Virus record (IMG/VR): IMGVR_UViG_3300031841_002533
Location: 1 to 28,235 of that record
Length of the DNA stretch: 28,235 nt
Source of the DNA: a virus
Strand: one strand, 5' to 3'
Both the position numbers and the translations under genes were made by a program. Under the pieces are notes generated by a model. It saw only the letters and a list, made by a program, of their open reading frames with translations. It did no database searches and was not told the DNA's origin. Of the stretch, positions 4,001 to 15,346 are shown piece by piece; positions within the stretch are counted from its first letter, which is position 1, and every line of letters begins with the position of its first letter.

Positions 4001-4538
4001 AACGGTGAAGAGACTCTTCAACATTACGTCGAATATTGTTAACAAGGAACCAATCCCCAAGAGGGATTGGCCTGTGCTTAGACGATTCTTTGGGGACAGC
4101 GCAGCAAAGACATTCGAGGAACGGGGCTATGACAATGAGATCATAGAGAACCTCGACAAGGCTTATGGAACCGAGCGCCAGAAGGCCATACGTATTGCGT
4201 CCAGCACCTTCAAGAAAATGAAGGCCAAGGAGTCCGGCGCCGAGAAGCGGCTGGTTCTTCGCAACGTGATCCAAGATAATCCAGAGCTTGCGCCAAGGAT
4301 ACTGAAGTCATTAAACACTAAGTTCGAGGACGATGCCGTGGGTATGACATCACAGGACAGGAGGCTCAAGTATCTGCCAATTGAGGCAAGGGCTGAGTTC
4401 CTGCTCAAGAAGATCGACACTATGCCTCCAGCCAACCTATCGCAGTACCTTAGCGTTATGCAGCAGCGAGGAATCCTTACACCGAAGGTGGTCAATCTAG
4501 TGCTTGAGATGAAAGCACTGCGCGAGTACGGTCAGTAA
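1092..4538 (+). CDS. Large internal virion (ejection) protein, polyvalent-protein type
   Basis: 1148 aa. The first 50 residues contain three copies of an EFGRPLDD-type motif (residues 3-10, 23-30, and EFGRAIAEE at 41-49) in an acidic context. Residues ~74-106 form a Gly/Ala/Val-rich segment like a glycine-zipper membrane helix. The middle is mostly charged and predicted helical. Residues ~570-800 (NPEFVIPNLSRDRSEA, then WDKINAIVEDSTRFNVYRRGL and ARDSSFDP...AYLFANPAIQGGRNFLRSMRNP) resemble the LPD38-type region of phage polyvalent proteins. The family usually travels in the virion and is ejected with the DNA. I see no lysozyme or peptidase motif. It is the last + gene here; its final 7 nt overlap the end of the convergent gene. 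The start has an A/T-rich leader and no Shine-Dalgarno sequence. Confidence 0.8.
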   Translation: MEEFGRPLDDEEELAELPEDQQEFGRPLDDPQEDIIEKGQEFGRAIAEENAGEEPTATDYAAALAADIAISEGGRMAGASIGSVVPVVGTGVGWVLGGLSAGAAGSVTRQKMLGQDISYGEVVADMLLNVIPVPKAFKLFKNKTANLAAFQGMVGTGTSVGAEVIEKSISEDRLPTVEELESAGVRGFTLGAGLGAAGSKMDDAYRKFSGVGRDELNEAYKMGDPDAKILVDGALKNAKQHQEDVRNNYKKMRLAIKTATMDSRAQLQELQKTSGGGQIRSKGGVFEVMSDDVDYNMNSRLAEGIIAGKNAEIENIIDLDNKFLVSKSDEIGVNPIQLSDSINKYLYAKHALSFNKAKAKGFKGEGGPAGITNDEAKDIIKNFEKSKLNTELKDILDSRRDLSKRILDTLEDGGLMGKAEAAQLRKTFPDYVPLNRIMDQDGKFRPGMFTAVGSEREVSDIGANIVGNLSAAIRRAELNKANKSFLRLVQKKKNQKAAKDIVQIYKPREGTKKFDLPEGIEKDSVVTVYDNGVPTAMAFKDKELASAMRGQNREVLGSVMKAALWYNRTIGSMYTRFNPEFVIPNLSRDRSEAIVNAAAKMDLGNALRVANPINDIITIRRNLFSKGKVSTDPKAAEMDALYKQFVTDGGSTGNLGATTIQSVEESIDKMKKSLSNPRASKTRDFLKVWDKINAIVEDSTRFNVYRRGLDSGMTRKQAALAARDSSFDPLVKGTKGDTLRAAYLFANPAIQGGRNFLRSMRNPRVLSSVIASMMTGTLALDLFNQSTDPDWKEKMKSSSGSSWKTDKSLTIVYGKNPDGSLKHVSIPIGYSIAPFKKVADYLQQKVIQQRLMGIEPSVVEAEKSLGEQGKELFKAFIDGYNPMGGSLLPTPLRPWFELAQNKDGLGNDIRPSWLETKNISDTEKMFPWTMDTRGGEMAISFSEQLKNMGYEVSPESLGYLYQTWVGGPGGTVKRLFNITSNIVNKEPIPKRDWPVLRRFFGDSAAKTFEERGYDNEIIENLDKAYGTERQKAIRIASSTFKKMKAKESGAEKRLVLRNVIQDNPELAPRILKSLNTKFEDDAVGMTSQDRRLKYLPIEARAEFLLKKIDTMPPANLSQYLSVMQQRGILTPKVVNLVLEMKALREYGQ

Positions 4539-4939
4539 AGCTCGACCATCTTGCAGTCCTTCTCGTACACGTAGCCAACCTCCTTGGATACCCATTGCCG
4601 CCGAGAGAACTCTGTGGTCATTGGCATATTCTTGTTGCACCATCCGAAGTCATAGCCCTCGGCTAGGAGCCGAGTTATGTTCCATATGTAAGCAAACTTC
4701 TGGTACTCAGTAACATACAGTACTTGATGACCAGTTCTGGACGATGCCTCAATGTTGGCATCAACCTTGTGCTTCTCAATAAGCCAGGGGTCATACTTCT
4801 TATTACGGGACTTTACCTCTATTAGGTAAATGTCATTTGAAAAATCAAATGTGCTGTACTGATCAACGGCCTTCACGGTGTTCCGCATAACGTTGGGGAA
4901 TCTTTCCGTCAGCCTGTTGATTATCTCAGTATCTTTCAT
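4532..4939 (-). CDS. Small PD-(D/E)xK nuclease-like protein
   Basis: 135 aa. Residues ~30-55 read FDFSNDIYLIEVKSRNKKYD, a beta-strand pair carrying a candidate D...ExK metal site (Asp then Glu-Val-Lys) as in restriction-endonuclease-fold nucleases. A following helix has E..K (WLIEKHKVDAN). The later part (GHQVLYVTEYQKFAYIWNI) fits the remaining strands. The size would suit a junction resolvase, nickase or accessory nuclease, but no specific family is recognised. It lies downstream of dnaB, separated by a 220-bp hairpin-rich gap, and its stop overlaps the convergent ejection-protein gene by 7 bp. No Shine-Dalgarno sequence precedes the ATG. The fold assignment is inference from motifs. Confidence 0.6.
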   Translation of the reverse strand: MKDTEIINRLTERFPNVMRNTVKAVDQYSTFDFSNDIYLIEVKSRNKKYDPWLIEKHKVDANIEASSRTGHQVLYVTEYQKFAYIWNITRLLAEGYDFGWCNKNMPMTTEFSRRQWVSKEVGYVYEKDCKMVELY

Positions 4940-10869: not shown

Positions 10870-11967
10870 TTAGAGTACTCGTTGAAGTAAGGTTGTAAAG
10901 GCTTTTGTTGCAGTCAATGGCACTACTCCATTGCCGAGAAGTCGCAATCTGTCCACCCGACTGGAAGCCCCATTAGTTGCTCGACCCAATCTGGGTTCAG
11001 CTTGCCCGTTGCTTTCCCGCAGTGACCCGCAATGTCCTCCTCTAGGTTGGACTTCTTGCGATTCGCTAGGTGCGCTCGGTTCTCCTCCGTTATTACTGGG
11101 TGAACCTTGTTGGCTCTCGGTGTCGCCCACTGCTGTGACCCTTGGCTGTTCCCATTCGTGCTGAGGTTCGCCTGGTCTTGCAGGGAAACGTGTGCAACCC
11201 TCTGTCCAAGTGTTTGTTTGGATGGATTCGCACGGCTCGGAGGAACCGTTGCGTTGGTGTCCTTCCAGTCCCTTGTGGTGGCTGTTGGCCAGTTCTGTGC
11301 TGCCTTCCGACTGTGGTTCATATTGGGATAGTGAACCTGCTCCCGTAAGTTCATACATCCCGCGTTCTTCTCCGCTCTGGTCTGAGCTAACTTCTCTGGA
11401 GTCCGCACTATGTTTACGTGGTCGAATGCTTGTGGAGTAGCCCAAGATGAAGACCCGCTTTCTCTGGTGAGGTGCGCCGACTTCACTCGCTGAGAAAATT
11501 CCTGCCTCTGCTCGGTAACCCAGTCCTTCCAACTCTCGGAGGACATACTGGAGAACCGACTCTCCATCGGCGGTCTTACTTGAGATAATTCCTTCAACGT
11601 TTTCGAGGAAAACAATTCGAGGTTCGCACTCCCGGATTCCGTCTCGGATGTATGGGAAGAGATGCCTTGGGTCTTCAGTGCCTGCACGCTTTCCAGCAGA
11701 GCTGAATGGTTGGCACGGGAATCCACCAGAGAGGATGTCCACGCATCCACGAAACCGTCCGTATGGGAAGGTCTTAACGTCCGTGAACACAGGTGCTGGA
11801 TCCAACTCTCCCGCTTCCATCTTTGCAACCAAGTTCGCGACAGGGAATCCTTCCCTCTCCACGTAAGCGATTTCTCGCAGATTTGGGAGAACTCTTTGGA
11901 GTCCAATCCCAATGCCCTCGTACCCGCTACAGAGGCTGAGGTGTGTAATTGTTTTGGAAGTATCCAC
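10870..11967 (-). CDS. DNA (cytosine-5) methyltransferase
   Basis: 365 aa. Family motifs in order: I (LSLCSGYEGIGIGL, residues 10-23, SAM binding), IV (GGFPCQPFSSAG, catalytic Cys85), VI (ENVEGI, 122-127), VIII (QRKRVFILG, 168-176), then a long low-complexity, Gly/Ser/Glu-rich target-recognition region (~180-335), and X (LGNGVVPLTATKAF, 344-357). It would methylate cytosine C5 in a sequence not predictable here, probably protecting phage DNA from host restriction; no partner restriction gene is seen. The start is GTG; AAAGGAA lies 6-12 nt upstream. The same ribosome site also precedes an ATG two bases earlier in another frame, which opens an overlapping 348-codon frame (see that entry). Confidence 0.9.
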   Translation of the reverse strand: MDTSKTITHLSLCSGYEGIGIGLQRVLPNLREIAYVEREGFPVANLVAKMEAGELDPAPVFTDVKTFPYGRFRGCVDILSGGFPCQPFSSAGKRAGTEDPRHLFPYIRDGIRECEPRIVFLENVEGIISSKTADGESVLQYVLRELEGLGYRAEAGIFSASEVGAPHQRKRVFILGYSTSIRPRKHSADSREVSSDQSGEERGMYELTGAGSLSQYEPQSEGSTELANSHHKGLEGHQRNGSSEPCESIQTNTWTEGCTRFPARPGEPQHEWEQPRVTAVGDTESQQGSPSNNGGEPSAPSESQEVQPRGGHCGSLRESNGQAEPRLGRATNGASSRVDRLRLLGNGVVPLTATKAFTTLLQRVL

Positions 11968-11969
11968 AT
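10923..11969 (-). CDS. Frame overlapping the methyltransferase, with its own family-like motifs
   Basis: 348 codons almost wholly inside the methyltransferase gene, same strand, other frame, starting at the ATG of ATGTG. From about residue 105 the translation looks like a real protein: SSKTLKELSQ, MSSESWKDWVTEQRQEFSQR, SSSWATPQAFD (176-179 WATP), NWPTATTRDWKDTNA (~226), QQWATPRANK (~279) and LNPDWVEQLMGLPVGWTD (324-341). From memory, W-P-T-P repeats and an LNPxWVExLMGxPxGWT ending recur in proteins annotated as, or beside, phage cytosine methyltransferases. Residues 1-100 look like an ordinary shadow frame. It could be a second product, the remnant of a frameshifted longer methyltransferase, or a by-product of the repetitive target-recognition region. 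Confidence 0.4.
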   Translation of the reverse strand: MWILPKQLHTSASVAGTRALGLDSKEFSQICEKSLTWRGKDSLSRTWLQRWKRESWIQHLCSRTLRPSHTDGFVDAWTSSLVDSRANHSALLESVQALKTQGISSHTSETESGSANLELFSSKTLKELSQVRPPMESRFSSMSSESWKDWVTEQRQEFSQRVKSAHLTRESGSSSWATPQAFDHVNIVRTPEKLAQTRAEKNAGCMNLREQVHYPNMNHSRKAAQNWPTATTRDWKDTNATVPPSRANPSKQTLGQRVAHVSLQDQANLSTNGNSQGSQQWATPRANKVHPVITEENRAHLANRKKSNLEEDIAGHCGKATGKLNPDWVEQLMGLPVGWTDCDFSAME

Positions 11970-11980
11970 TTAATTCCTTT

Positions 11981-12388
11981 CTAGTTATTGGCCAGTGACC
12001 AGGTTTTTACTTCACTCTCGGTGGTAAGATACCGCTTCTTGGTTACTGCATCCTCGATGATGAATGGGCGCTTGTATGCACGCGGTTTGTAGCCCTTCAG
12101 ATAGAAGAACTTGCCCTTAGGTGTCCGAAGGATACTGCCCAGCCATTCGTCTGGAATGCCAAGCATCTTGTTATTCTCCTGCAGGAACTTCAGTTCCGGC
12201 GTCATTACCTCGCCGTCCTGTATGATGCCCACATTCAGCTTGAAGCTGATGGTATGCGAATCGTACTTGGCGTTGCCAGCACGGATACTGACACCCAGTT
12301 CGCTGCCAAGCGACTGGAGTGCTTCATTGATTTGTTCGCGGATCTCGCGGCAGGAGTCCGCAGTGATGGATTGGATTTGATTTGTCAT
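11981..12388 (-). CDS. Hypothetical protein
   Basis: 135 aa, not recognised by name. A helical N-terminus (DSCREIREQINEALQSLGSELG) leads into a strand (VSIRAGNAKYDSHTISFKLNV), a linker, then a GSILRTPKGKFFYLKGYKPRAYKRPFIIEDA block that resembles small phage proteins I cannot place in a family. The leader contains the 14-bp repeat that also precedes the next two genes upstream. It ends shortly before the methyltransferase ribosome site. Confidence 0.7.
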   Translation of the reverse strand: MTNQIQSITADSCREIREQINEALQSLGSELGVSIRAGNAKYDSHTISFKLNVGIIQDGEVMTPELKFLQENNKMLGIPDEWLGSILRTPKGKFFYLKGYKPRAYKRPFIIEDAVTKKRYLTTESEVKTWSLANN

Positions 12389-14656: not shown

Positions 14657-15185
14657 TGAAAAACTAGGTTGCTAGTCCAATTTTTCTTTTATGCTTTCAA
14701 TCCCCAAACGATCTTTACAGATCGCCTCGCGGGACTCGACAAATTTAAATCGAGCGTGCAAAGCCTCCATTTTTCAGCAATGCAACTTCCTTGAAGATCG
14801 CAAATTCTCCGCGCGGTTTCATTCAAAAAGCTGTTTCAAGCAAGTTCCACAAGTGGCGCTTCTTTCGGCTTCCGCCTTAACCCAAAAGTGAGCTTTTCAA
14901 ACTAGATCGCATTTCAAAGGTGCTATGTAAAAGAACTTCGTATTTAAACGATGCCAATATAAATGCACATTCCACCAAGCACGTCGATAACTTTTTTAAC
15001 TTTTTTACTTAGAAAAGTGTAAGATATTGAACAGCAACGATTTGCGAACGAAAAAACTTTCAAATTGAGCCCCAAAACCTATTCTTTTCACCGTTTGGAA
15101 ATGGGGATTTGCAGTAAATTGACTCCAAAGTGATGCGCTGAATGTATCTGACTCACAGAAAGAAAAACGCAATCCGCGCGCGAAA
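14657..15185. other. Intergenic stretch without a convincing gene
   Basis: About 530 bp. Short frames are present but none looks like a protein or has a good start. The right half is A/T-rich with T-tracts (around 14992-15008). Small dyads occur, such as CGATC/GATCG near 14710. The early - promoter probably lies here or nearer the gene, but I could not pick it with confidence. Confidence 0.5.
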
Positions 15186-15346
15186 CGTATCCATTTTCTG
15201 AATACACGTATCCACTTTTCCAATACACTGCGCAACGTATCCGGATTTTGAATACACGTATCCACTTTCTGAATACGTATCCAAATCCTGAATACACGTA
15301 TCAAGATTCTCGATACACTTCCTGGCGTATCCAAATCCTGAATACA
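15186..15346. repeat. Seven-unit array of 21-bp dyad repeats (iteron-like)
   Basis: Each unit is CGTATCC-N7-GAATACA or a close variant, and the two halves are themselves an imperfect inverted repeat (consensus YGTATYC-N7-GRATACR). Units start at 15186, 15207, 15236, 15257, 15276, 15297 and 15326, so spacings are 21, 29, 21, 19, 21, 29. Units 5, 6 and 7 lie exactly 90 bp from units 1, 2 and 3: a 90-bp segment was duplicated. With the A/T-rich tract just to the right, this looks like a replication origin. A multi-site operator or a partition centromere are alternatives. Confidence 0.7.

Follow-up and report, generated by a model that had tools for sequence, protein, structure and literature searches.

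In canonical C5-cytosine methyltransferases, the variable region and motif IX are located in the small domain (PMC3404938), and in the one-chain order of these enzymes both lie between motifs VIII and X. M.AquI is split after motif VIII into two chains that make up one enzyme, its small subunit having motif X as well (PMC3404938). In M.EcoHK31I, motifs I-VIII, motif X and the predicted target-recognition region (TRD) are assigned to the large subunit and only motif IX to the small one (PMC3404938), so that TRD and motif IX are not bound to the same chain. The ShiLan domain, an HNH endonuclease, lies hidden within the gene of a phage methylase (PMC11855218), and the orphan prophage C5-methyltransferase BA_3814 has a predicted EaeI/EagI-type specificity (PMC4722110).

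The window analyzed here is the whole 28,235-base virus record IMGVR_UViG_3300031841_002533, and both of its methyltransferase frames, A and B, are on the minus strand (Table 1). Frame B is shifted by +1 from A, with an overlap of about 1,040 nt. For M.EcoHK31I (YGGCCR), too, the small subunit is reportedly encoded in an alternative, overlapping frame within the gene of the large one, and B, the predicted second polypeptide of the window, occupies such a frame. Compared by description, the two systems are further alike in how the motifs are divided, with motif IX on a different polypeptide from motifs I-VIII and X. However, window B is nearly as long as A, has its start in the shared ATGTG and not inside the other gene, and contains TRD-type modules, whereas the predicted TRD of M.EcoHK31I is in the large subunit; the position of the TRD-type region in B makes the window locus a variant rather than a plain M.EcoHK31I-type member. 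No partner restriction gene was recognized beside the window locus. We regard it as very probable that the locus is a split C5-cytosine DNA methyltransferase of the M.EcoHK31I kind, with A as alpha and B as beta subunit behind one ribosome site.

The first-pass annotation had described one ribosome site leading to ATGTG and from there to two frames of 348 and 365 codons; the frames were found as described, and all motifs quoted in it were located in them. The minus-strand sequence AGAAAGGAATTAAATGTG holds one ribosome site and two start codons, and AAGGA is a single site serving both ATG (5 nt) and GTG (7 nt). The Shine-Dalgarno sequence overlaps the stop of the upstream gene, and comparable purine-rich sites were present in most relatives. 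The RNA structure at the start was ordinary (z 0.46).

Table 1. Features of the overlapping methyltransferase frames in window coordinates.
Feature	Position	Strand	Remarks
Frame A	10870..11967	-	GTG start at 11967, stop 10870, 365 aa; C5-cytosine methyltransferase with motifs I-VIII and X, without motif IX
Frame B	10923..11969	-	ATG start at 11969, stop 10923, 348 aa; TRD-type WPTP modules and motif IX
Shared start ATGTG	11965..11969	-	ATG opens B, GTG opens A
Shine-Dalgarno AGAAAGGA	11975..11982	-	5 nt before ATG, 7 nt before GTG; read from sequence
A motif I (LSLCSGYEGIG)	11908..11940	-	Alignment of A homologues
A motif IV, catalytic cysteine (GGFPCQPFS)	11701..11727	-	Alignment of A homologues; aligned with M.HhaI
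A motif VIII (QRKRV)	11452..11466	-	Alignment of A homologues
A motif X (RLRLLGNGVVPLTATKAF)	10897..10950	-	Runs beyond B's end; alignment of A homologues and hhalign
B TRD-type region, WATPQA to motif IX start	11004..11444	-	Homologous to the region between VIII and X in one-ORF L254 and RitaG
WPTATTRDWKDT in B TRD-type region	11256-11291	-	
WATP in B TRD-type region	11118-11129	-	
B motif IX-like KLNPDWVEQLMGLPVGWT	10950..11003	-	Corresponds to A 319-336; also in L254, L244 and L255

Frame A matched PF00145 of Pfam (1.1e-33, profile positions 3-214 of 324) and phrog_363 of PHROGs (1.1e-53), and a profile search of the PDB returned M.HhaI (2.4e-25). Motifs I, IV (PCQ), VI (ENV), VIII and X were all recognized, the catalytic residues were invariant in an alignment of 45 homologues, and the motif X end of A matched the tail of phrog_1008. 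TRD and motif IX were not found in the same chain, the Pfam match stopping at position 214 of 324. A motif IX pattern was found in none of 86 A homologues and in 73 of the 86 B proteins, counts that are descriptive because the pattern was composed with these same sequences in view. Without TRD and motif IX, A by itself falls short of a complete one-chain enzyme.

Frame B matched the family phrog_1008, 'DNA methyltransferase', over residues 75-343 (2.6e-13, PHROGs) and gave no match in Pfam; it reads WPTP-type modules and terminates in the motif IX-like LNPDWVEQLMGLPVGW. A profile comparison was performed between the window B family and a family of Pelosinus L254, Brevibacillus L244, Alicyclobacillus L255 and Paenibacillus phage Tadhana, and the two were joined over B residues 74-343 with 99.7% probability (E 3.3e-26), whereas A aligned with that family only at its WEQPRV-to-motif X end. 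When B was modeled alone with AlphaFold, a pLDDT of 48 was obtained and the TRD was not confidently predicted, and in the fused Pelosinus enzyme the TRD was likewise mostly below 50. Foldseek ranked C5-methyltransferases first, with alignments of about 170-180 columns, a length that corresponds to the catalytic domain. Neither the B profile nor the profile including the fused form found a methyltransferase among PDB sequences, and an HMM of the actinophage in-frame TRD was too divergent to be informative (window B -2.7 bits, B homologues median 6.1, A -2.1). Residues 1-170 of B are conserved (W37, R38, W47, W51; predicted helix 144-170) and under selection in the window's clade.

Loci were gathered from IMG/VR with B and A as separate queries, together with annotated phages. 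This gave 163 loci, 162 of which matched A and 161 both frames, and the overlap was at +1 in every pair (161/161). The sole A-only locus was that of actinophage RitaG, whose one-ORF enzyme includes the B-type region in frame. It had been considered that homologous methyltransferases might carry stops scattered through B, or that its LNPDWVEQLMG end might be without homologues; instead, 161 of the 162 A-matching loci had an open, homologous B, and the end had homologues across phages, one-ORF methyltransferases included. Among 104 untruncated unique loci, whose upstream flanks differ, ATGTG was present in 88 and GTGTG in two, the other 14 having mostly separate starts close together. That GTG is the usual start of A is expected if the ATG of B is fixed. 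The two-frame arrangement was observed in phages of cyanobacteria, Proteobacteria and Bacillota, and actinophages had one-ORF or partly overlapping forms; among 299 genomes sampled from the phylum of Lihuaxuella, phrog_1008 was rare (4 genomes).

The chance of an open B frame was estimated by shuffles preserving A's protein and codon usage. B stayed open in 1.0% of 500 such shuffles of the window, with a mean of 3.2 stops, and in 0.5% as a mean over 107 loci. The open frame by itself is therefore only moderately unusual in the window and is weak evidence, and since its chance openness (1%) was not negligible, the argument was shifted to homologues. One of five shuffled controls matched phrog_1008 at 24.8 bits in the N-terminal part only, compared with 51.1 bits for the real B, so some of the family-likeness of B's N-terminal half is imposed by A; none of the five matched the motif IX end. 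The decisive evidence beyond chance is the conservation in relatives, and we regard dual coding as near certain.

Selection in both frames was followed through A's third positions, each of which serves as a second position in B. Relative to change at first/second positions, third-position change was 1.42 in A and 2.57-2.93 in four neighboring genes of the same phages, so the third-position suppression proposed as a check on homologues was indeed seen, with strong selection on B. Four-fold sites of A were then analyzed in 419 locus pairs with unsaturated control genes, the rates being given relative to these controls; the pairs are not independent, and the figures are effect sizes, not p-values. 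Over motifs I-VIII the sites changed at 0.19-0.50 of the control rate, over the NWPTATTRDWKDT module at 0.17 and over residues 291-318 at 0.15. Over residues 319-336, which face motif IX of B, the rate fell to 0.00 of control (0.2% observed vs 50.6% expected), whereas beyond this motif, over residues 337-363, it was 0.86, B stopping at about A residue 348. The stretch of A just past B's motif IX, where the four-fold sites vary 45%, thus varies normally and serves as an internal control. Within 319-336 the amino acids of A differ by 37.5% and the matching B stretch by 15.8%; here the sequence is set by B, and A follows. Suppression was weak (0.68-0.80) in the highly variable A segments 179-222 and 237-270. 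For a second group, from Proteobacteria and consisting of BcepC6B, N15, three copies from E. coli and one from Klebsiella, A four-fold divergence was 0.54-0.62 in the first 120 residues, 0.20 at 121-180, 0.21 over B motif IX and 0.56 after it. It seems that the proteobacterial B matters only from mid-gene; the window's clade is constrained from the shared start. Both frames were thus shown to be under purifying selection.

Relatives in which the same segments are joined or divided differently were also found, with 34 distinct one-ORF members; the naturally joined forms bear independently on what B is. Pelosinus L254 is a single chain of 419 aa in the order A (I-VIII), B (TRD and IX), A (X): its first part shares 48% identity with Tadhana A, its middle, with WPTP modules and QLNPDWVECLMGFPIGWTD, is 41% identical to Tadhana B and 75% identical to window B over 24 aa, and its motif X end is 55% identical to Tadhana A. 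In RitaG the B-type sequence is in frame and the Pfam match reaches profile position 317 of 324; RitaG and L254 each match both phrog_1008 and phrog_363. In L244 and L255, A stops after motif VIII, and TRD, IX and X are all in B. L254, L244 and L255 all have a motif IX-like sequence in frame ahead of motif X. Phage YungJamal has an annotated pair of 197 and 188 aa overlapping by 209 nt, with motif X in B. With motif X also in its small subunit, M.AquI is closer in its split to L244, L255 and YungJamal than to the window. In the L254 genome, the stretch for motifs I-VIII is also open in an alternative frame of 164 aa (G002:C148:3311-3679), which matches phrog_1008 in that family's N-terminal part with 43 bits; it may be left over from an overlapping ancestor or imprinted by A. 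In Gordonia phage CheeseTouch (L272:1189-2223), the A frame holds motifs IX and X, and the +1 frame has LPTPTASD-type modules and is open over 267 codons, ending before IX; the locus is possibly an intermediate form.

Three other readings of the locus were weighed. That B is not a gene, its openness and family look being forced by A's protein and codon usage, seems highly improbable. The shuffles that leave B open in the window and the weak N-terminal phrog_1008 match of one control do favor it, as does the ease with which WPTP arises from V-A-D-T in high-GC codons. However, A's synonymous sites are near-frozen exactly over B motif IX and normal past it while its amino acids vary there, the ATG of B is conserved, and the pattern recurs in the proteobacterial lineage. 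As a full explanation, this reading is refuted by the four-fold sites of A over motif IX.

A frameshift product had been offered among the first suggestions, namely programmed frameshifting in which the ribosome leaves A for B once motif VIII is read and returns to A for motif X, yielding one A-B-A chain. The one-ORF relatives have exactly this segment order, but two shifts would be required, each frame is open from its own conserved start, and selection on the N-terminal half of B is not explained by a shift after motif VIII. A programmed frameshift would leave one frame incomplete, and both frames here are full-length. Moreover, motif X lies in B in L244, L255 and YungJamal, so two chains suffice in these relatives, which argues against a double frameshift; of the early suggestions it is the least supported, and we consider it improbable. 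Equally improbable is the reading of B as a regulatory or accessory protein in its own right, such as an inhibitor or one with another target, that has TRD-like repeats but is dispensable for methylation by A. In its favor, B is longer than a TRD requires, and the N-terminal half over motifs I-VIII is conserved as well; against this, motif IX is absent from A and present in B, and the fused relatives put B's segment inside the enzyme. The suggestion of two proteins from one locus gained support, B carrying the TRD-type region and motif IX missing from A, and so did that of a long-standing overprinted target-recognition region, which is the same thing.

From the sequence comparisons we strongly infer the subunit roles of the split enzyme. 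A would be the catalytic subunit, with AdoMet binding, the catalytic cysteine and motif X, and B the specificity subunit, with the target-recognition region and motif IX. A ribosome at the one Shine-Dalgarno sequence may start at ATG to make B, or 2 nt later at GTG to make A, so that one message would give both subunits from start codons 5 and 7 nt from the ribosome site. The two chains are predicted to be translated and to assemble in trans into one active enzyme, which probably methylates the phage's own DNA and may thereby protect it against host restriction. The window and over a hundred relatives thus appear to encode both enzyme halves in one stretch of DNA.

Our literature search found no paper on a methyltransferase overlap of this kind in phages. 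What is new here is the near-total overlap with a conserved shared start and the broad distribution in phages, where annotations often show a single gene; relative to M.EcoHK31I, a beta chain nearly of alpha's length and TRD-type modules in beta are also new. The ShiLan case is similar in that a second protein lies in an alternate frame within a phage DNA methylase gene, but it is a mobile nuclease insertion, whereas B extends over the entire gene and looks like the part that the enzyme itself lacks. PHROGs keeps phrog_1008 (B) and phrog_363 (A) as separate 'DNA methyltransferase' families, with the two-frame link unrecorded. In RefSeq, only A was listed in the three E. coli loci examined, while only B was annotated, and A missing, in Acidovorax phage Alfacinha1 (L005:2501-3634) and Synechococcus phage Ssp-JY39 (L003:2501-3616), under the names 'cytosine-specific methyltransferase' or 'hypothetical protein'; both frames were annotated in Tadhana. 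As many annotations show one frame, sometimes the non-catalytic one, specificity predictions can miss the subunit with the recognition region.

As an instance of two full-length proteins on the same DNA strand in viruses of prokaryotes, the locus is unusually clean, and the one-ORF, tandem, nested and fully overlapped forms make a natural series on the origin and resolution of overlapping genes. On balance, we lean toward a broader proposal, in which phage C5-methyltransferases across many host phyla would be obligate two-subunit enzymes with the specificity subunit in the catalytic gene's +1 frame. Near-complete overprinting would have arisen in one marine clade, with ATGTG dual initiation setting the subunit ratio, and movement of TRD and motif IX between frames would interconvert the gene with one-ORF and tandem split forms.

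Two further observations were made elsewhere in the window. A 135-aa protein at 4532-4939 (minus strand), without a match in PHROGs, has a LIEVKSR stretch that looks by eye like a small nuclease motif. An array of repeats of about 20 bases, with the consensus ACGTATCCA...GAATAC, is present at 15180-15318, in the region that separates the leftward from the rightward block of genes.
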